Assembly (NCBI GenBank): GCA_020161265.1 | Contig: JAIUOC010000002.1 | Span: forward strand, 248,001-312,000 | DNA: 64,000 bases | Source of the DNA: Chloroflexota bacterium | GTDB lineage: Bacteria; Chloroflexota; Chloroflexia; Chloroflexales; Herpetosiphonaceae | Direction: 5' to 3' | Shown: positions 31,495 to 44,680 of the stretch, piece by piece | Layout of the letters: every line of letters starts with the position of its first letter | How positions within the stretch are numbered: position 1 is the stretch's first letter | Program-made: the position numbers and the translations under genes | Notes under the pieces: model-generated | Seen by the model: only the letters and a program-made list of their open reading frames with translations | Databases searched by the model: none | What the model was told of the DNA's origin: nothing

Positions 31495-31887
31495 ATGCCA
31501 ACCATCTTAGTTGTTGATGATATGCCTGACAACCGTCAGCTTTTAGGAATAATGCTCCAACGGTCTGGTTATACAACCGAGATGGCTCGTGATGGGGTTG
31601 AAGCTCTGGAAGCTATTCAAAAAAGCCGACCAGACCTGATATTGCTTGATTTGAACTTGCCGCGCCTGGATGGCTGGGCTGTCTGTCGCACCGTTAAATC
31701 CGACCCTCGCTTGGCGCATATTCCGATTGTGGCATTAACTGCTAGTTGCAGCCCTGGCGAAGTCAAGCAATTGATGACCCCCGATTGGACTGATTATGTG
31801 AGCAAGCCTTTCGACGTTATGTCATTAATGGAGAAAGTTAAGCTTTGGCTGACTGGTTCCAATCAATCCAAGCCATGGTATGGTTAA
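31495..31887 (+). CDS. Single-domain response regulator (CheY-like)
   Basis: A 130-residue receiver domain with no output domain. Acidic pocket Asp8-Asp9, phospho-acceptor Asp52 (LILLDLNLP), Thr82 and Lys104 (SKP) are all present. Such proteins relay phosphate or bind partner proteins. It is the only plus-strand gene in the signalling block and is convergent with the minus-strand receiver genes across a shared bidirectional terminator. The cognate kinase could be the large LOV kinase nearby, but this is not shown by the sequence. Confidence 0.9.
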   Translation: MPTILVVDDMPDNRQLLGIMLQRSGYTTEMARDGVEALEAIQKSRPDLILLDLNLPRLDGWAVCRTVKSDPRLAHIPIVALTASCSPGEVKQLMTPDWTDYVSKPFDVMSLMEKVKLWLTGSNQSKPWYG

Positions 31888-31975: not shown

Positions 31976-32356
31976 TTAGGTCGAGGGGGCTTCGATAAAT
32001 TGCAACATGGCATTCCAGAGATCGCGCAAATTGATCGGCTTAGAAACATAGCCATCACAGCCAGCCGCAATCGCCTTTTCAGCATCGCCCTTGAGCGCGT
32101 TGGCCGTCACCGCTACAATCGGAATCGTGGCCGTTTGTGGCGTATCACGCAAGCGTCGCGCTACCTCGTAACCATCAATATCGGGCAAGTTAATATCCAA
32201 CAAGATAATCTGTGGATTATGCGCCAAAGCCAGTTCGATACCAGTTGAGCCATTAATTGCCTTGAGCATTTGGCAACCACGGGCAATCAACAGGCGCTCC
32301 ACCAACAGCATATTATCAGGGTTATCTTCGATATATAAGACAACGGTTGTACTCAT
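31976..32356 (-). CDS. Single-domain response regulator, coupled to threonine-synthase-like fusion
   Basis: A 126-residue receiver with phospho-acceptor Asp54 (IILLDINLPDIDGYEV), Thr84 and Lys106 (SKP). It resembles receivers that follow hybrid kinases (YIEDNPDN start, DIDGYEVARRLR). Its ATG overlaps the stop of the preceding gene (ATGA), so its translation is coupled to the PLP-enzyme/receiver fusion. The order kinase, fusion, receiver on one strand suggests a phosphorelay operon. Confidence 0.92.
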   Translation of the reverse strand: MSTTVVLYIEDNPDNMLLVERLLIARGCQMLKAINGSTGIELALAHNPQIILLDINLPDIDGYEVARRLRDTPQTATIPIVAVTANALKGDAEKAIAAGCDGYVSKPINLRDLWNAMLQFIEAPST

Positions 32357-33990
32357 TGGTCCTCACTATCACGCTCTTTGTGTTCAATGACACTCACAAC
32401 CTGTTCGACAAAGGCAACTGGTGAAAGTGAGCCTTTTTGATACACAGCACGGGTATGGGTTGCTAAATGATGGCGCTCAGCGGGCGTAATATCTTTGGCG
32501 CTCACCACAATAATCGGAATATCACGGGTTTTGGGGTGTTGACGTAAGGTACTCATCACCTGAAACCCATCCATATTTGGCATCATTAAATCCATCACAA
32601 TGGCATCGGGCAAGCGTTGAATTGCTTGTTGCACGCCATCGGCTCCATCGGTTGCCCGATAGACACGATAGGCTTTGCGTCGCTCTAAAATACGCTGCAC
32701 CAATTGAGCATCATCAGGATTATCATCGATCAACAGCACCGTTGTCGCTTTTTCATTCAATTGTTCCAGCGCCGCCTGAAGCCCTTCTTGGGGCGCTGAT
32801 TGTTGGGTATCGCTGACATGCACATCAATATGCCATTGATCGTTCAGCACATGCTTATCGACTGGGAAGGTGTGCCCAGTACAATTTACCACAATTAATT
32901 CTTCAGGGTTAACTTGGCCTTGGGCCACCATTTTTTGCAGGCCCGCAAATGCTACAGCCGTGGCTGGCTCCACCGAAATACCTTCAGTTCGCGCCAATAA
33001 GCGCATTGCACTGAAGGCCTCTTCGTCGGTGACAGCTTCCATCGTGCCGCCCGATGTTTGGATGCGTTGCCAAAGCCGCGTATAGATCTTACCGGGATCG
33101 CCTGTTGAAAGAATTGCAATCCGCGTATTTGGCACAACTTTTTCGGCCACCGATTTGCCAGCCTGAAATGCCTGCACCATCGGTGAGCAGCCTTCAGCTT
33201 GAATAATCGCGGTTTGGGGTACGCGCTGGGTCAAACCCATGGCATGTAATTCGGCAAAGCCATGATACACGCCGAGTGGCCCCAAGCCACCGCTAACTGC
33301 CTGAATATACCAATCAGGTGCTTGCCAGCCAAGTTGCTCGCAAATTTCGTAGCTGATCGTTTTCATAGCTTCCCGTGCCGGAATACTGTTAGCCCCACGA
33401 TCATAAATAATGTTTCGGTTTTGGGCAAAATCAGCGGCAATCTGCTTGGTTTGATCATAATTACCACTAACTTTGATCACCTCAGCCCCAAACAAGGCCG
33501 CTTCGCGCAATTTTGCTTCTGGCACCACGCTAGTCATAAAGACCCACAGTTTAATGCCAACTGCGGCACAAGCTGAGGCATAGGCGACCGCCGCATTGCC
33601 AGTCGAGGCAATCACGCATTCGCGAATATCATTCGAAACTAAGGCTGCCACAGCCAAGGCGGCTTGGCGATCTTTAAACGAATTGGTTGGGCTATAACGC
33701 TCATCTTTAATATACAAGCGTGGCAAGCCCAACAAACCACCAAAGCGCTGGGCATGCAACAAGGGAGTTCCGCCAACATGGGTTGGCGCAGCTGGTGGCG
33801 GCACCGGCAAAACGCTACTATAGCGCCATAACGTCTGGCCGCTCATTTGTTGATTGCGCACCAACTCGCAAAAGTTGGCATAATCGTAATGCGTCTCAAG
33901 CCAATCGTTAGCACATTGGGCACAGCTATTCGAGCTACGAAAGGTATATGGCTGAATATGGCCACAGTTCTGGCAAACTAAATCTGTCAT
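32353..33990 (-). CDS. Threonine-synthase-like PLP enzyme fused to a receiver domain
   Basis: An unusual two-domain protein of 545 residues. Residues 1-30 are a zinc-ribbon-like motif (Cys6, Cys9, Cys23, Cys26). Residues about 60-405 are a fold-type II PLP enzyme of the threonine synthase family: Lys106 in NSFKDRQ should bind PLP, with ASTGNAAVAYA for phosphate and substrate binding and VSGGLGPLG later. Residues about 422-540 are a complete receiver domain (LLIDDNPDD, phospho-acceptor Asp467 in VMDLMMPNMDG, VVSAKD, Lys in YQKGS). It lies 46 bases after the LOV histidine kinase gene on the same strand and overlaps a second receiver gene. Catalysis of phosphohomoserine to threonine is the family reaction; the actual substrate and phospho-control are inference. 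Confidence 0.88.
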   Translation of the reverse strand: MTDLVCQNCGHIQPYTFRSSNSCAQCANDWLETHYDYANFCELVRNQQMSGQTLWRYSSVLPVPPPAAPTHVGGTPLLHAQRFGGLLGLPRLYIKDERYSPTNSFKDRQAALAVAALVSNDIRECVIASTGNAAVAYASACAAVGIKLWVFMTSVVPEAKLREAALFGAEVIKVSGNYDQTKQIAADFAQNRNIIYDRGANSIPAREAMKTISYEICEQLGWQAPDWYIQAVSGGLGPLGVYHGFAELHAMGLTQRVPQTAIIQAEGCSPMVQAFQAGKSVAEKVVPNTRIAILSTGDPGKIYTRLWQRIQTSGGTMEAVTDEEAFSAMRLLARTEGISVEPATAVAFAGLQKMVAQGQVNPEELIVVNCTGHTFPVDKHVLNDQWHIDVHVSDTQQSAPQEGLQAALEQLNEKATTVLLIDDNPDDAQLVQRILERRKAYRVYRATDGADGVQQAIQRLPDAIVMDLMMPNMDGFQVMSTLRQHPKTRDIPIIVVSAKDITPAERHHLATHTRAVYQKGSLSPVAFVEQVVSVIEHKERDSEDQ

Positions 33991-34036: not shown

Positions 34037-37000
34037 TTATTCTACAGACATAGGTTGATTGGCTGGCGTTGCATTAGGATTAACTTCATCTTCGCTGGCA
34101 TTGATTGGCAACTCAATGGTAAAGAGTGAGCCTTCACCAGGATTGCCGCTACTAACCATCGAAAGTTTGCCGCCGTGCATTTCGACAAGGTGGCGACTAA
34201 TTGGCAAGCCTAAGCCCGTACCGCCCGCCTTACGGGTTGTCGAATTATCGACCTGATGGAATTCCATGAAAATCGTATCTTGATTATCGAGCGGAATCCC
34301 AATGCCTGTATCTTGGATTTTAATCATACGGGTCGTTGGCGTTGTGTCAATGCCTATTGTCACCGAACCTTGCTCGGTAAATTTCAGGGCATTGCCTACG
34401 ATATTCAATAATACTTGGCGAATACGGAAACGGTCGGCATAGACTGGCAATTTGAGATTTGGCTCAATATCGACCAGCAACTCGAGATGTTTCTGCGTAG
34501 CCAATGGTCCGACCGTGCTTGCCACTTCATGCAATACTTCCACCACATCGAAGGTTTCACGGAAGAGCGTGAGTTTGCCCGATTCGATCTTGGCCATATC
34601 CAAGATATCGTTGATCAAGTTGAGCAAGTGACGACCGTTACGATGAATAATGCTCAAGTCATTATGAATCAGGTCGTTGATTGGCCCGTTGATGCCTTCG
34701 AGAATGACCTCGGTAAAGCCAAGGATTGAATTGAGCGGTGTGCGCAACTCATGCGACATATTAGCCAAGAAGGCCGATTTAAGTTGGTCAAGCTCCTGCA
34801 AGCGCTGCATCGTCGCGGTTTGTTCAGCAAACAAGCGGGCATTTTGCAAGGCAATCGCAATTTGACTGGCCAAAGTGGTTTGAATCTTGCGATCATCATC
34901 AGTAAAGATGTTGCTTTGGTCGGATTGAACGTCGAGCACCCCTAGCAGCATCGAGCCAGCAATCAGCGGAGTCGCCATTTCAGCGCGGGTTTCAGGCAAC
35001 AGTGGGTGTGGCAAGAAGTTCGGGTTTGAGCGCACATCGTTTTCAATAATCGAGCGTCGTGCCCGCCCAGCTTGGGCCACCAACGATTGCTCCCGATCCA
35101 ATGGAATCGAGCGACCTTCCTTGACCATGGTGCGACCAATTTCACCAGCACCGAAGGCCAATTCTAAGAGTTGGCTCTCAGGGTTATACAAGTAGATATG
35201 AGCATGGTAGAGGCCGAAACGATGTTTGGTCAGATCAACCACGGTTTGCAGCAGTTCTTCCACATTCAACAAACCTGCCGCCGAGGTACTGACCTGAGCC
35301 ACTGTTTCCAGTTCGAGTGCCCGATATTCCACTTGGCTCAACAATTGTTCACGTTCGCGTTGAGCATTGCGCTGCTCAGTTACATCCTGAATCAGCGAAA
35401 GCACCCCAGTTAGTTGTTGTTGCTCATCGAACATTGGCACAGCGACTGAATCAACCGAGACTCGCTTACCATCAAGCCGCATAACATCAACCAATTCGCG
35501 AGTGGGCTTTTTAGATGCTAAGGCCTTGAACAAACCAGTTTCTTGGACTTCCAATTCTTTATCTGTACCTTCATACAGGAACTTTGGTCGTGGCAAGGCT
35601 GGTTGTTCCAAGACTGCCGCACCCATTTGGCCGGATACCCCCAGAATCTCAATCGTCGAGCGATTGATCATCTGGCTGACACCCTTGTTATTGACCACAT
35701 AAACCCCAATCGGCATGTTATCGAGAATCGCTTTGAGCAAGCGTTCTTGTTCGATTGTGGATTGCAGCAAGCGTTCACGTTCTTGCTCATTGAGTTTACG
35801 GTCAGTAATATCTTGCAAGAGGGCAATCCCGCTGATAACCTGGCCTTCGCTGTTGAGCACTGGTGCGCCGCTGGCCAAAACTGTGAAACGACGGCCATCA
35901 GGATGGGCAATATCAAATTCAGCTTGGGCATGTTCGCCGTAGCGCAGTGCCCGAAACACTGGAATATCGTTTGGATCAAAGACGGTTTCAGTGCCAGGAA
36001 TAAAGAGTTGGTAGGTCTCGCCAACTGTATCAATTGCATCGGGGTTCACATCGCCAATCGGCTGACCGACGATCAATTGGGCGCTTTGATTTTGAAGCTG
36101 CATCTCAAAGTCAGCATTGTAAACCACCACCCCAACCGGCAGGGCTTCGAGAATCCCTTGTAGCGTCCGCCGTTGGCGGTCAGTTTCAACCAAGTTGCGC
36201 TCGCGTTCTTGTTCATCGCGCTTGCGGTCGGTAATGTTACGGCCAACGCTCATAATCAATTCGGGACTGCTGGTTTGATCATCCATAATTGGCAGCAATT
36301 GGAAGTCGAACCAAGTTTCCTCATTATTGACCATAAACATCGATTCACGATTGAGGTTTTGGGATGTGCTGAAAATAAATTCAGCATCAGCTCGGCGCGA
36401 TTCGACCGTAGCAGGAGTCAATATTTGCTCATCAAGCAAGCCAATCAGTTCAGCAGGCTTGCGATTGAAGATACCAGCCGCAAATTCATTGATATATTGT
36501 AAACGATGTTCGCGGTCGAAAATAAACACCACGTCACGCGAGGACTCAGCCAAAGAGCGATAGCGGACTTCACTGTCGCGCAAGGCTTGTTGTTGTTGCT
36601 TTTGGGCGCTAATATCGTTGGCAATTTTGAGATAGCCGGTAACCTTGCCTTCACGGTCACGCAAAGCAGTAATTGAAAGCAGCACTGCGAAGCGGCGACC
36701 ATCACGGGCAATATAGGTCCATTCACTATTTGATGCTCGTCCGCGATGAGCCTCATACACCAAAGCTTCATGGTGATTCAATGGCTCACCAGCTTGCTTG
36801 CTGAGTTCTTTGGTAAATTGCACAACTTCTTCAGGGTCGTTGGCCAACTCGATCAGACTCTTGCCAATTACCTCGTGAGCGCTATAGCCCAGCATTTGCT
36901 CAGCCGAGCGATTGAACGAGGTGATATTGCCATCAAGCGAGGTTGCAATAATCATATAGGTGGCACTATCGAGCATGGTTTGCTGGAAGCCCAAGGATTC

Positions 37001-39670
37001 TTGCAAAGCTTGTTGAGCCTCAACCCGTTCGCTTACGTCTTGTTGAACCCCAATAAAGTTGATCAACTCGCCGTTTTCATCAAAGACTGGGTTGATATCG
37101 AGTTCATTCCAGAACAAGCTGCCATCTTTGCGATAGTTACGCAAGAGCACCCGCGTGGCACGTTTTTCCCGCACTGCATAACGCAATTCGCGCAAACCTT
37201 GTTGGTCGGTATCATCGCCCTGCAAGAAACGACAGTTCTTGCCAATGACTTCTTCGGGTGTATAACCGGTAATCCGCTCGAAGGCAGGGTTGACATACAC
37301 CACTGGCATATCAAACTGATGTGGATCGACAATCACAATCCCGTCGTTACTAGCGGTGATCGCCCGTTCACGAATTCGCAAAAGTTCTTGGGTGCGGGTG
37401 ATTTCTTCAAACGATTGGGCATTTTCCAAGGCAACCGCCACTTGGGCCGCAATCGATTGGAGCAAGGTTGCATCATCGTTGGTTAGCGAATTAACTTCAG
37501 CATTTTGCACGTCCAACACGCCAAGCACTTCATCGCCGAGCATAATTGGCACAGCGATTTCAGCCTTGGTTTCGGGGAGCAAGGGATTGGCCAACCAGCC
37601 AGCTTCACGGCTGACATCGGGCACCAACACCACATCTTTGGTATTGGCGGCACGGCCAACCAAACCACGGCCTTGCGGAATACGGTGATTCCGCGCAAGC
37701 AAGGTGCGACCAGCCTGCCCCGTACCACCCATCATCACAAACTCATTGGTCTGTTGGTCAACCAAATAAATGTGGGCGTGATAGTAGTTGAAGGTATTCT
37801 TAAGCTGCTCAACCACTTCCAATACCAATTGATTGGGGTTCAAAATGGTTGAAAGTCGGCGGCTGACCTCGTTGGATGTTTCCAAAGCGATTGTACGTTG
37901 TTGCAAACCTTGTAGCGTTTCTTGCAACTGATCAGACATACTATTAAAGGTGGTCGTCAATTGACCAATTTCGTCTTGCGAGCTGACCGGAGCACGGGTT
38001 GATAAATCGCCTTGGCGGAAACGTTCAACAAATTCAGTCAAACGCTCAATTGGATTCGTCAAAATTCGCGCTGCAAACACAGCAATCATACTAATCCCGA
38101 CCAATAACGCCAACACAATCAAGGTTGTATAGCGCTCCGATTGGCGAATTGGCGCTAAGAAGGTTGCTTCGCTTTGATGGTAGAGAATCCGCCATGGCAC
38201 AGTTTTGGTCGCGGTGTAGGCATAAATATCGTTGCCTTCAGGATCGGGATCGCCTGGTTTATCCTGTTCAGGAATTGAACTGGAAAGCGAAATCACTTCG
38301 CCATTCGTTTGCGGATCAAGCACAATCGCTTTGATTGCATTGATTAATTCGGGATATGGCACAAGCAGATTTTCTGGATTAATGTTTTGCAAACGCCGTT
38401 CATCTTGCAAGCGTTTAATTTCATCAGGCTGCAAATTATCGGCAATTTTATACAAGAGAGTTAATTCGCTGCCCTGAGCAATCCGCATGCCATATTCATC
38501 AAGTACAATCCCAAACGAGTTTTGACCAGCGCGGTCATTACTGCGGGCTACCAATGATTGAATAATACTGGCGCTATAACGAATCCGTAGCACGCCGATA
38601 ATTTCTTGGCTTTGTGGATTACGAACAGGCGTACTGAAATAAATTGAAGGCAGGTTATCGTTACCGAAGGTTACTGGTGAGATAATGCTCTGACCAGTGC
38701 GAATTGCATCTTGATAATATGAAAGCCCTGAATCATTGACCCCAACGTTGGTTGGCACAGTATCGACCAAGACCACGCCACGATTATTCAGCAACGCAAC
38801 CGAGAGTGTATCGTTATTTTCGGTCGTAACTGCCCGAAACAAATTACGTGTATCACGATCTTGGTCGGGAACCAAGGTATTTTGTTCGGCAGCCAACAAA
38901 TATTCGCTTAATTCAGGAATCCGCGAGAGTGCACTGACCCGGTTAATGTTCCGATTGACAAAATCATCAATTTCGTTGGCAATATTGGTCGCATTCACCA
39001 AAATCAAGCTATTAGCCTGATTTGTAAGCGAATCACGGGTTGAGCGCAAGGTAATAAATGAAATAATCGCAATTGGCAGGGTTGTCACCAAAACAAACGA
39101 GATCAGAATTTTGTTGCGAATCGAGAGCGTGCCAAATTCGCGAAACACAAAGAAAAGCAAGATGGCAATTGCCGCAATGCTCATCAAAGGCATGTAGATT
39201 TCTTGGCTGCCCGAAACCCGCACTTCTTGAATATTCAAGAAGGTTTTGAGCAAGGTGGCAATCACGCCAAGGCTAATTGTGCCCAAGATAACTGGAAAGA
39301 TATGGCGTTCAGGCAGGGTTTGGATCGAAATAACCAGCACAAAGAACACATTCAGAATCGAGAGCATAAAGCCAAACTCAGCAATAAAGAGTTGGCTTGG
39401 AAAAGTGGCAACAGCAATTGAGACAATTAAGCTGTAAGCACCTGCAATCAACCAGCCATTTCTTGCCGAAATGGTGGCACATAAACCCCCAAATGCCGCA
39501 ACAACAATGCTGATGATGCTCATGTAGTTTTGCCACGACGGCAAGCGCAAGGCTTCTAGGCCATAGGGTACGGCCATGATTAGGCCAATAATCATGGTAA
39601 AAATCCCAAAGCGCAAAATACGCTTGAGCCGAATGCTATTCAATGTGGTATCAGTCATTCCACTAGCCAT
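34037..39670 (-). CDS. Giant membrane LOV/PAS/GAF sensor histidine kinase
   Basis: An 1877-residue kinase. Residues about 20-190 contain six or so membrane helices; after another helix a dCACHE-like extracytoplasmic region follows (about 225-515). A membrane helix and HAMP (PIERLTEFVERFRQGDLSTRA) come next. A GAF domain (about 625-770), a LOV domain (about 775-890), several PAS domains and a second GAF domain precede HisKA (His1640 in NMSHELRTPLNS) and HATPase (GGTGLGLPI). The LOV motif GKNCRFLQG places Cys813 for FMN adduct formation, with NYRKDGSLFWN and FIGVQQDVS also matching flavin-contact positions. ATG 39670 has GAGG seven bases upstream. No receiver is fused; the next genes encode two receivers. 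Confidence 0.9.
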   Translation of the reverse strand: MASGMTDTTLNSIRLKRILRFGIFTMIIGLIMAVPYGLEALRLPSWQNYMSIISIVVAAFGGLCATISARNGWLIAGAYSLIVSIAVATFPSQLFIAEFGFMLSILNVFFVLVISIQTLPERHIFPVILGTISLGVIATLLKTFLNIQEVRVSGSQEIYMPLMSIAAIAILLFFVFREFGTLSIRNKILISFVLVTTLPIAIISFITLRSTRDSLTNQANSLILVNATNIANEIDDFVNRNINRVSALSRIPELSEYLLAAEQNTLVPDQDRDTRNLFRAVTTENNDTLSVALLNNRGVVLVDTVPTNVGVNDSGLSYYQDAIRTGQSIISPVTFGNDNLPSIYFSTPVRNPQSQEIIGVLRIRYSASIIQSLVARSNDRAGQNSFGIVLDEYGMRIAQGSELTLLYKIADNLQPDEIKRLQDERRLQNINPENLLVPYPELINAIKAIVLDPQTNGEVISLSSSIPEQDKPGDPDPEGNDIYAYTATKTVPWRILYHQSEATFLAPIRQSERYTTLIVLALLVGISMIAVFAARILTNPIERLTEFVERFRQGDLSTRAPVSSQDEIGQLTTTFNSMSDQLQETLQGLQQRTIALETSNEVSRRLSTILNPNQLVLEVVEQLKNTFNYYHAHIYLVDQQTNEFVMMGGTGQAGRTLLARNHRIPQGRGLVGRAANTKDVVLVPDVSREAGWLANPLLPETKAEIAVPIMLGDEVLGVLDVQNAEVNSLTNDDATLLQSIAAQVAVALENAQSFEEITRTQELLRIRERAITASNDGIVIVDPHQFDMPVVYVNPAFERITGYTPEEVIGKNCRFLQGDDTDQQGLRELRYAVREKRATRVLLRNYRKDGSLFWNELDINPVFDENGELINFIGVQQDVSERVEAQQALQESLGFQQTMLDSATYMIIATSLDGNITSFNRSAEQMLGYSAHEVIGKSLIELANDPEEVVQFTKELSKQAGEPLNHHEALVYEAHRGRASNSEWTYIARDGRRFAVLLSITALRDREGKVTGYLKIANDISAQKQQQQALRDSEVRYRSLAESSRDVVFIFDREHRLQYINEFAAGIFNRKPAELIGLLDEQILTPATVESRRADAEFIFSTSQNLNRESMFMVNNEETWFDFQLLPIMDDQTSSPELIMSVGRNITDRKRDEQERERNLVETDRQRRTLQGILEALPVGVVVYNADFEMQLQNQSAQLIVGQPIGDVNPDAIDTVGETYQLFIPGTETVFDPNDIPVFRALRYGEHAQAEFDIAHPDGRRFTVLASGAPVLNSEGQVISGIALLQDITDRKLNEQERERLLQSTIEQERLLKAILDNMPIGVYVVNNKGVSQMINRSTIEILGVSGQMGAAVLEQPALPRPKFLYEGTDKELEVQETGLFKALASKKPTRELVDVMRLDGKRVSVDSVAVPMFDEQQQLTGVLSLIQDVTEQRNAQREREQLLSQVEYRALELETVAQVSTSAAGLLNVEELLQTVVDLTKHRFGLYHAHIYLYNPESQLLELAFGAGEIGRTMVKEGRSIPLDREQSLVAQAGRARRSIIENDVRSNPNFLPHPLLPETRAEMATPLIAGSMLLGVLDVQSDQSNIFTDDDRKIQTTLASQIAIALQNARLFAEQTATMQRLQELDQLKSAFLANMSHELRTPLNSILGFTEVILEGINGPINDLIHNDLSIIHRNGRHLLNLINDILDMAKIESGKLTLFRETFDVVEVLHEVASTVGPLATQKHLELLVDIEPNLKLPVYADRFRIRQVLLNIVGNALKFTEQGSVTIGIDTTPTTRMIKIQDTGIGIPLDNQDTIFMEFHQVDNSTTRKAGGTGLGLPISRHLVEMHGGKLSMVSSGNPGEGSLFTIELPINASEDEVNPNATPANQPMSVE

Positions 39671-41287: not shown

Positions 41288-44200
41288 TTAGGCTTTTTCA
41301 GTAGCCAATTCTTGCATAATCGCAGGCAGTACTTGTTCAAACGGGGTTGTTGGGCGTTGGCTCATAATCAGCCATTGAGTCTCGCCTAAAATTTGAATCA
41401 GCTTGGGTTTGAGTTTATCAATTGCTGCATGAATTTCGCTATCGATCGCTTCATGATGCAGCACAATCTGAATCAAGCCAGCGCTGGCCTCGGCTTGATT
41501 GGTCGCCAAACGCCATTCAGCCAAGGCTACCAAACTATGCAAACAGACTAGAGTCATGTGTTTGGCATAGCCCAAACTCAATGCTTGCTGCAAATAGGAG
41601 CGTGCTTCATCCCAAGCTTGTTCAACAATCGCCAAACCACCCAAATTGAGCTGATTGACGGCGATGCCAAAATCGTGGCCTTGCTCGATCGAAATCGCTA
41701 AACCATCACGATAAGCTTCGCGGGCAACCTGATAATCGCCCCGTGCAAACGCTACCACGCCGACATTACTAACCCCACTAATAATTCCACTAGGATAATT
41801 GACCTTGCGTGCTCGCGCGACGCTGGCTAGAAAATGTTGTTGGGCAGTGTAAAGGTCGCCTTGGACATAGGCAATGTTGCCAAATTGGCGCAGCACATCG
41901 GCCTCACCAACTCCATCGCCAATTTGTTGCGCGGTTACCAATGCCGCATCCAAATTGGTCAAGGCCATGCTGTGGTCGCCCAACCGCCAGCGGGCTTGGC
42001 TCAGATTAAATTGCATGCGCACGATTTGTTGCTGCGCAGCAAAATCATCATCAATTGCCAACAAATGCAAGGCTCGCTCAAAAAACGGAATCGCCTCACG
42101 ATAGCTACAGCGCACAAGAGTTTGCTCACCCGCTCGCCGCAAGGCATCGATCGCAGGCTGACGGCTTTCTGGTTCATCAGGATCGATCGCATGGCTCCAG
42201 TGGTGGGCCAAAAGGCTGCTGCCTGCTTCAACCAAATGGGGATGTTCGCGGGTGTACCATTCGGCAATCGCGCGATGCAAGGCTCGTCGTTGGCCAAACA
42301 ATAACAATGAATAGGCCACATCGTGGATAATTGCTTGACTAAATTGGTAGCCCTCGGCAGCCTCGTGAATAAAACCCTGTTGCAGCAATAACTCAAGATG
42401 CGCCGGAATATGCTCACGTTCATGAGCCACGGGATAAATCGCATCAAGCACTGCCAAACTAAAATCATGGCCGATCACACTAGCGATTTTGAGGGTTAAT
42501 TGGGGTTGCGGCGGCAGTTGATCAATTCGGCTGACCAGCACGCCCTGAATTGTGCTTGGGAGATTGAGTTTTTCCAGCTGGCTAAATTGATCAAGCTTGC
42601 AAACTCCATTGTTAACCCGAATCATGCCAGCGTTGCGCAAAGCTTGGGCTAGCTCGATGCTCCACAGTGGATGGCCAGCCGCACGTTGATTGATAAATAA
42701 GGCCACACTTGGCGGAATCGCCTGCACACCCAATGATTGAGCAACCACCGCAATACAAGCCACAGGATCAAGCGCTTGCAGATGGATGGTTTGCTGTGAC
42801 TCAAGGCAGGCCACGTTGGCAGGCGCAGTTGTAATCAGAATAATGTCGTCATGCTGCTGCAACAATAATTCCAGCGTTGCCAAGGCCAATGAATCGAACC
42901 ACTGCAAATTATCAATGCACAAGACTAACGGGCGTTGAGCATGCAGTTGATACAACGCATGACCAATTAATTCATGGATGATTTGCACCTGTTGGGCATG
43001 ATCGGTGGCGTTGGCTTCGGCACGACCTGGTAGTTCTAAAACATCGTGGAGCACATGCACCGATTTAGCGAGCTGCTCAGGCAATTGCAAACGCTGAATA
43101 ATTAATTGATAACATTGAGCCGCTTGATTCGGCCATTGCTCAACCGCCAAACACGCCTCAAGCAACAAACGCCAGCCTGGATACTGAGCCGATTGACGCA
43201 GACTGCTGCTGGTAATCAACATAGCTTGGCGCTCGTAATGCTGAGCAATTTCAACGGCCTCATACAACAAGGCCGATTTACCCATGCCGCTATCGCCAGT
43301 GATTGCCACATGTTGAATGCTTGGTTGGGTTTGGTTGAATAGCGCCTCAATTTGGCCACGTTCGCGCCGTCGGCCAATTAAGCGCCGAGGCCGAATTTGG
43401 TCAGGGCTATGGTTGGTTTGCTGCGGGCGATAGATCGTAATTGGCTGGCTTTTACCTTTAATCGTAATTGGCGGCAATACTTGAAAGCGCACATGCTGTT
43501 GGCTAGCTTGGGCAGTGGTTTGATCACAGAGAATTGGCGCAAGATTGGCTTCCATCAAACGAGCAGCCCGATTGACGACATCGCCAATCATGGTAAATTC
43601 GCGGCGCTGGCTATTGCCAATCTCGCCGCAAAAGGCTGGGCCAGTGGCGATGCCAATCGTGTGGGTTAAGCTCAGTTTGCTCAATGCGGCTGAGGCTTCC
43701 AAGGCTGAGCGCACCGCTCGTTCAGCATCATCGCGATGCGAGAGCGGTGGCAAACCAAAAGCCGCCAGTAAACTTACGCCTTTATCATCAACCGATAGTT
43801 TGTCGATGCTGCCTTCGTAGCGAAAAATAACGGTTTGCAAAGCACTAACTGCGGCTTGCACTTGCTCTAGTGTGGTAAAAAAGCTCAAAGCTGGCACATT
43901 AATAAACATCACACTCAGATGGCGTAGCTCAGCCAGCCATTCGTGCAAACCGGCATTAATTCGAGCAATCACCGCCGTGGGCATAAACGGGGTCAACTGC
44001 TCAGTTGGATAATCGGGCATAGTCTGGTTAATTGTTGGCAAGGGCAGATTTTCGGCCATTGCAGTTAGGCGAAAAGCCTGAGCACGCAAATCTTCGCCCA
44101 AGCCATATTCGCGAATTAACGAACGCGCTTCGGGCGAAATGATCACTTGGCCAGCAAAGCTTTGTGAGCCAAGCAAATGCACTTGCAACAGCGCCTCGCC

Positions 44201-44680
44201 CGTAATCAACTGCTCCCAATGATTATTTACACCGCCCACGATAAAACTTGAAATCGAGCCAGCTCCAATTTGCACACGAATCGCCAAGCGCTCAGATTCG
44301 CTAGGATTGTTAAAGCTTGCTTGAATCGCTAGGCCACATTGAGCCGCAAGCTGAGTATTTTGGGTTAATTGATCAAGGTCGTCGGCCATCCAAATCGCAA
44401 TTAATGCATCGCCAGCAAATTTCACCACATCGCCGCCATGGGCAATCACAGTATCAATTAATTGACTAAATGAATCGTTGAGCACATCGGAAATATATTC
44501 GAGAATGGTGGTTTGGTCGTAGGCAAATTGCTCACTGAGGCGGCTAAAACCAGAAAAATCGGCAAACAACACCGTCGCCAATTGATCTTCGGCTAGCGGC
44601 TGGCGCGGTTGATGCTCTTCGATAAGCCGTTGTAGGACATAGCGTGGCAGAAAGCTGCTGATCTGAGGGTTGGCGGCCAT
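41288..44680 (-). CDS. Class III adenylyl cyclase with ATPase and TPR domains (soluble AC-like)
   Basis: An 1130-residue protein laid out like soluble adenylyl cyclase. Cyclase domain 1 (about 35-200) has the metal Asp41 in VLFADFSGF and a second Asp in KFAGDALIAIW (about 92). Cyclase domain 2 (about 255-410) has Asn where the first Asp should be (VMFINVPAL) but keeps the transition-state pair in GDVVNRAARLM, so together they form one asymmetric active site. A STAND/AAA-type ATPase follows (P-loop TGDSGMGKSALL, about 463), then a TPR-like helical array (about 850-1080). No membrane segment. The product is probably cAMP; nothing in the sequence shows what activates it. Confidence 0.87.
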   Translation of the reverse strand: MAANPQISSFLPRYVLQRLIEEHQPRQPLAEDQLATVLFADFSGFSRLSEQFAYDQTTILEYISDVLNDSFSQLIDTVIAHGGDVVKFAGDALIAIWMADDLDQLTQNTQLAAQCGLAIQASFNNPSESERLAIRVQIGAGSISSFIVGGVNNHWEQLITGEALLQVHLLGSQSFAGQVIISPEARSLIREYGLGEDLRAQAFRLTAMAENLPLPTINQTMPDYPTEQLTPFMPTAVIARINAGLHEWLAELRHLSVMFINVPALSFFTTLEQVQAAVSALQTVIFRYEGSIDKLSVDDKGVSLLAAFGLPPLSHRDDAERAVRSALEASAALSKLSLTHTIGIATGPAFCGEIGNSQRREFTMIGDVVNRAARLMEANLAPILCDQTTAQASQQHVRFQVLPPITIKGKSQPITIYRPQQTNHSPDQIRPRRLIGRRRERGQIEALFNQTQPSIQHVAITGDSGMGKSALLYEAVEIAQHYERQAMLITSSSLRQSAQYPGWRLLLEACLAVEQWPNQAAQCYQLIIQRLQLPEQLAKSVHVLHDVLELPGRAEANATDHAQQVQIIHELIGHALYQLHAQRPLVLCIDNLQWFDSLALATLELLLQQHDDIILITTAPANVACLESQQTIHLQALDPVACIAVVAQSLGVQAIPPSVALFINQRAAGHPLWSIELAQALRNAGMIRVNNGVCKLDQFSQLEKLNLPSTIQGVLVSRIDQLPPQPQLTLKIASVIGHDFSLAVLDAIYPVAHEREHIPAHLELLLQQGFIHEAAEGYQFSQAIIHDVAYSLLLFGQRRALHRAIAEWYTREHPHLVEAGSSLLAHHWSHAIDPDEPESRQPAIDALRRAGEQTLVRCSYREAIPFFERALHLLAIDDDFAAQQQIVRMQFNLSQARWRLGDHSMALTNLDAALVTAQQIGDGVGEADVLRQFGNIAYVQGDLYTAQQHFLASVARARKVNYPSGIISGVSNVGVVAFARGDYQVAREAYRDGLAISIEQGHDFGIAVNQLNLGGLAIVEQAWDEARSYLQQALSLGYAKHMTLVCLHSLVALAEWRLATNQAEASAGLIQIVLHHEAIDSEIHAAIDKLKPKLIQILGETQWLIMSQRPTTPFEQVLPAIMQELATEKA

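Follow-up and report, generated by a model that had tools for sequence, protein, structure and literature searches.

A receiver-fused PLP-dependent enzyme conserved in Chloroflexota is a candidate two-component output

Gene organization of the locus

The window, a 64,000-nucleotide stretch of a Chloroflexota genome, carries a minus-strand gene that joins a fold-type-II PLP-dependent (PALP) domain to a receiver domain (Table 1). An initial annotation of this DNA had placed such a fusion here, right after a large kinase gene and overlapping a second receiver gene. All three points hold: the fusion occupies a single open reading frame, the kinase gene lies 46 nt upstream, and the overlap with the receiver gene amounts to four nucleotides. 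Adjoining the system on the minus strand (41288–44680) is a gene for a protein of 1130 aa with two class III cyclase-homology matches, an AAA_16 ATPase and TPR repeats. A further stand-alone receiver gene on the plus strand (31495–31887) is convergent with the operon and is not specifically conserved with it.

Table 1. Features of the locus, with positions in the window.
Feature	Position	Strand	Details
Stand-alone receiver, 126 aa	31976–32356	minus	4-nt overlap with fusion gene
PALP.REC fusion gene	32353–33990	minus	545 aa; Pfam domains; intact fusion in 80/80 loci
Receiver domain of fusion	32371–32745	minus	residues 416–540; Asp467 codon 32590–32592; Lys519
Interdomain linker	32746–32865	minus	residues 376–415, EGLxAALExLDEK helix; conserved
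Fold-type-II PLP-dependent (PALP) domain	32866–33828	minus	residues 55–375; Lys106 codon 33673–33675
N-terminal zinc-ribbon-like segment	33901–33990	minus	Cys6, Cys9, Cys23, Cys26; predicted zinc binding
Histidine kinase, 1877 aa, non-hybrid	34037–39670	minus	dCache, HAMP, two GAF, several PAS, HisKA, HATPase
LOV domain of kinase	36992–37369	minus	residues 768–893; GKNCRFLQ, Cys813; PDB 7r5n, 146 bits
GNAT acetyltransferase, 303 aa	39836–40747	minus	orthologue with 47–53% identity in 10 Anaerolineae loci
Second stand-alone receiver, 120 aa	40772–41134	minus	51–64% identity to receiver beside GNAT in several Anaerolineae loci

Both halves of the fusion score far above their Pfam cut-offs. Residues 70–372 match PALP (PF00291) with 249.5 bits against a cut-off of 35, and residues 418–503 match Response_reg (PF00072) with 67.2 bits against 30.2. 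The enzyme half combines the PALP fold of a fold-type-II PLP enzyme with its Schiff-base lysine (K106, within SFKDR) and its glycine-rich PLP-phosphate loop (STGNAA, 129–134). The receiver has the full set of response-regulator residues, namely the acidic pair D422/D423, the acceptor D467, S497 and K519, and is genetically linked to a cognate histidine kinase. Every PLP-site and receiver residue named in the initial annotation is therefore present. That annotation had not recorded the CxxC…CxxC segment at the N-terminus (C6, C9, C23 and C26).

Sequence conservation indicates that both domains are maintained. In an alignment of 57 fusion sequences (44–96% identity), the four N-terminal cysteines, K106, STGN, SGGxGP, D423, D467 and K519 are invariant in all 57, and the interdomain linker is well conserved in sequence. 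Across six pairs, dN/dS is about 0.02–0.08 for the PALP domain and for the receiver alike. Both domains are complete and subject to purifying selection and could work, as had been proposed. An AlphaFold2 model of the fusion (pLDDT 81, pTM 0.67) shows the PALP domain together with a receiver of (beta-alpha)5 order; linker residues 374–414 have low pLDDT and are unordered, so the model contains no domain interface in support of allostery.

Spread and ancestry of the fusion

We scanned about 85,000 species, obtained 146 confirmed relatives and examined the loci of the best 80 of these. All 80 are from Chloroflexota, with Anaerolineae in the majority. An unbroken reading frame encodes the fusion at every one of the 80 independent loci, which excludes a frameshift or an assembly error as its source. 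The initial annotation had allowed for a sequencing error joining two genes, to be recognized by the lack of a fusion in close relatives; the relatives carry it, and sequencing error or mis-joining is ruled out. The host belongs to the genus Herpetosiphon, the Herpetosiphon aurantiacus fusion being 99% identical to the window protein, and the fusion adjoins a kinase gene in more than 100 Chloroflexota genomes.

We also searched 400 sampled Chloroflexota genomes for full-score homologues (E ≤ 1e-80), and 41 of them encode the full fusion. Every full-score match includes the receiver; at this threshold, none of the 400 genomes showed a close homologue that was split or lacked the receiver. The fusions in these genomes fall into two groups relative to the window protein, A (62–64% identity) and B (44–50%), which often co-occur, one of each per genome. 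In a tree, all fusions form one clade against stand-alone PALPs with support of 100, and A and B are separate clades within it. The two clades reflect an ancient split after a single common fusion origin, with the exact root uncertain owing to long outgroup branches. Basal members of the family (L116, L117 and L125) have two tandem receivers behind the PALP domain. Among the searched genomes of its order, the fusion was not found outside Herpetosiphon, which therefore probably acquired it from Anaerolineae.

A conserved operon with an exchanged sensor input

The gene neighbourhood is conserved along with the fusion. A kinase orthologue (mean 52% identity) lies directly upstream in 70 Anaerolineae loci, and an orthologue of the 126-aa receiver (56–60% identity) follows at position +1 in 50 and at +2 in 7. 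The H-box HELRTPL is found in the same-strand upstream gene at 69 of 75 loci, the remainder being mostly truncated or split; in clade B, kinases lie directly upstream of the fusion in most loci. Because the upstream kinase and the downstream receiver are conserved neighbours, HK-[PALP.REC]-REC is, judged by gene order, a real operon. The signalling role assigned at the outset gains support from this operon, whose kinase and receiver are kept in those 70 and 57 loci, respectively. The receiver–GNAT pair is found downstream of the fusion in Anaerolineae as well; the GNAT gene occurs in 10 loci, most of which also have the paired receiver.

Other genes recur near the fusion. Just after the receiver gene and on the same strand, 31 clade A loci encode a stand-alone PALP of the PRK08197 type (e.g. 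L045:11057-12247), which was not found in Herpetosiphon. Another such stand-alone PALP occurs at L125:5833-7365. Annotation would make all of these proteins threonine synthases, though only putative ones. An EamA-family transporter gene is near the clade B fusion in 15 of 20 loci (e.g. L121:7014-7961). Together with the GNAT gene, these PALP and transporter genes place the fusion in surroundings that point to metabolites, in keeping with an enzymatic output. A gene for a ParA-like ATPase is near it in eight clade B loci (e.g. L121:12784-13572), directly before the kinase gene where examined, and near the fusion in L042, L081, L083, L112 and L113, so that both clades are represented.

The kinase contains a LOV domain that the initial annotation did not mention. 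It has the GxNCRFLQ photoactive-cysteine motif within a PAS/LOV fold, and is predicted to be photoactive. The motif is present in the upstream kinases of all four Herpetosiphon loci and in none of the 71 others, which rules out light sensing as a general trait of the system. From this distribution, the kinase input is exchanged in Herpetosiphon while the kinase core is retained, and blue light is a likely input there.

Relation to threonine synthase

The initial annotation called the enzyme threonine-synthase-like. Its closest profiles and structures agree with this, but the name threonine synthase itself has little support. The nearest solved structures to the PALP domain are threonine synthases (ThrC) and the cysteate synthase CapA2. 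The window protein falls below the cut-offs of both threonine synthase profiles, with 234 bits against 303 for PRK08197 and 167.0 against 167.1 for TIGR00260, the latter by a negligible margin of 0.1 bit. It also falls far short of cysteate synthase (TIGR03844), with 133.6 bits against 324.9. One clade B fusion, L120, exceeds both threonine synthase cut-offs (NCBIfam; 307.7 against 303 and 186.3 against 167.1), so ThrC activity may occur within the fusion family.

Active-site motifs separate the fusions from canonical ThrC. NSxNPxRxEGQ and GNAGN are common to the canonical ThrCs in the alignment, among them the host's own and that of Thermus thermophilus. All fusions have DRGxxSxPAREx and SGGxGPxG in their place, along with the further fusion-specific motifs FKDRQA and TGxPGxxY. 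The replaced residues are those that hold the substrate phosphate and the PLP phosphate in ThrC. The motif arginine is also missing from some proteins called ThrC (L016).

A separate canonical ThrC is encoded by the host (325 bits) and by 15 of the 16 other fusion-bearing genomes checked, 16 of 17 in all. For these genomes, the fusion as sole threonine synthase is ruled out. In the one exception (G196), a PRK08197-type PALP adjoins the fusion in place of a canonical ThrC. With its motifs replaced, its scores under both cut-offs and a canonical ThrC encoded separately, we infer that the fusion is a distinct ThrC-family PLP enzyme, whose substrate is probably other than O-phosphohomoserine. To call it "threonine synthase" is probably incorrect.

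A proposed phosphorylation-controlled enzyme and its alternatives

Complete domains, purifying selection and conservation of both fusion and operon make control by aspartyl phosphorylation the best reading of the locus. We consider it on balance probable that the fusion is a response regulator with a PLP-enzyme output. In this model, the adjacent histidine kinase would phosphorylate the C-terminal receiver at Asp467, and the receiver in this state would allosterically raise or lower the activity of the PALP domain at the N-terminus. The PALP domain would use Lys106/PLP chemistry for a beta/gamma elimination or replacement on a presumably amino-acid-like substrate. The co-encoded free receivers may share or drain the phosphoryl group, and in Herpetosiphon the LOV domain would likely make the kinase responsive to blue light.

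Three other readings compete with phosphorylation control of a distinct enzyme. The protein might be a genuine or paralogous threonine synthase under two-component control, its altered motifs still binding O-phosphohomoserine. The closest profiles and structures are indeed threonine synthases, L120 passes the curated cut-offs, and PRK08197-type "threonine synthase" genes are found in many fusion operons. We nevertheless regard this as unlikely, given the sub-threshold scores of the window protein, the replacement of both motifs in all fusions and the separately encoded ThrC. An alternative that reverses the flow of information makes the PALP domain a sensor, in which a PLP-bound amino acid controls phosphorylation or docking of the receiver. 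Location in a signalling operon would suit such a role, for which the MocR regulators, whose fold-type-I PLP domains serve as ligand sensors, offer a precedent. The full conservation of catalytic lysine, substrate loop and PLP site at very low dN/dS is instead the pattern of an active enzyme, and the protein lacks a DNA-binding or any other output domain, which makes the sensor quite improbable.

The receiver might also serve merely in dimerization, localization or as a phosphate sink, leaving catalysis unaltered. The low-confidence linker in the model and the several co-encoded free receivers are compatible with such a module, yet a linker well conserved in sequence and a fusion never seen split in the sampled genomes favour functional coupling, and we hold this reading to be very improbable.

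Beyond phosphorylation control itself, a more specific scenario is possible, though we offer it tentatively and with some doubt. The fusion may represent a kind of two-component output not described before. Its dedicated PLP enzyme would differ from both threonine and cysteate synthases and would be switched by Asp phosphorylation. It would make or remove a small amino-acid-like molecule, perhaps acetylated by the GNAT enzyme or exported by the EamA transporter to act as a signal, and blue light would be one input in Herpetosiphon.

Most two-component systems act through transcription factors or through enzymes of second-messenger turnover. The conserved joining of a PLP enzyme to a receiver suggests that in Chloroflexota with the fusion a signal may directly activate or shut down a metabolic reaction; if true, this would be direct phospho-control of an amino-acid reaction across a large, poorly studied phylum. 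The fusion is also a concrete example in which automatic "threonine synthase" annotation is probably misleading. Herpetosiphon, being cultivable, offers a genus in which the light input, the kinase and the enzyme could be studied side by side.

Comparison with known systems

No earlier description of a receiver–PALP output was found in the literature searched, which is weak evidence as most subscription journals lay outside it; the surveys examined for such outputs make no mention of PALP.

The fusion shares its fold-type-II PALP fold with the threonine synthases of Arabidopsis thaliana (2c2b, Z 43.7) and T. thermophilus (1uim, Z 37.3). ThrC and the fusion have the SFKDR lysine and the STGN loop in common at about 24–32% identity. 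In the fusion, FKDRQA, SGGxGPxG and TGxPGxxY are found instead of NSxNPxRxEGQ and GNAGN, and the ThrC proteins compared have no receiver domain. Plant threonine synthase is allosterically activated by S-adenosylmethionine, a precedent for regulating this fold. The zinc-ribbon "threonine synthase" PRK08197 shares with the fusion its layout of N-terminal CxxC…CxxC and PALP. Its stand-alone members score about 563–602 bits and have FKARGL and PYRxEGKKT, whereas the fusions score 234–308 bits and form a separate clade with 100% support. Cysteate synthase CapA2 (9k3c) is the second-best structural match (Z 39.2); it has no receiver, and the fusion lies far under the TIGR03844 cut-off for that family.

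As a response regulator, the fusion resembles those with enzymatic outputs (CheB, GGDEF, EAL, HD-GYP and PP2C), in which a receiver is fused to an enzyme and encoded with a histidine kinase. To our knowledge, such outputs act on proteins or on nucleotide second messengers; the output here would be an amino-acid-type PLP enzyme. The LqsA/CqsA autoinducer synthases are proteins of another PLP fold type that make signals. One report describes these PLP-dependent enzymes as genetically linked to histidine kinases and response regulators (PMC3376566). LqsA and CqsA are separate signal makers, whereas the PLP enzyme described here is fused to the receiver as its output.
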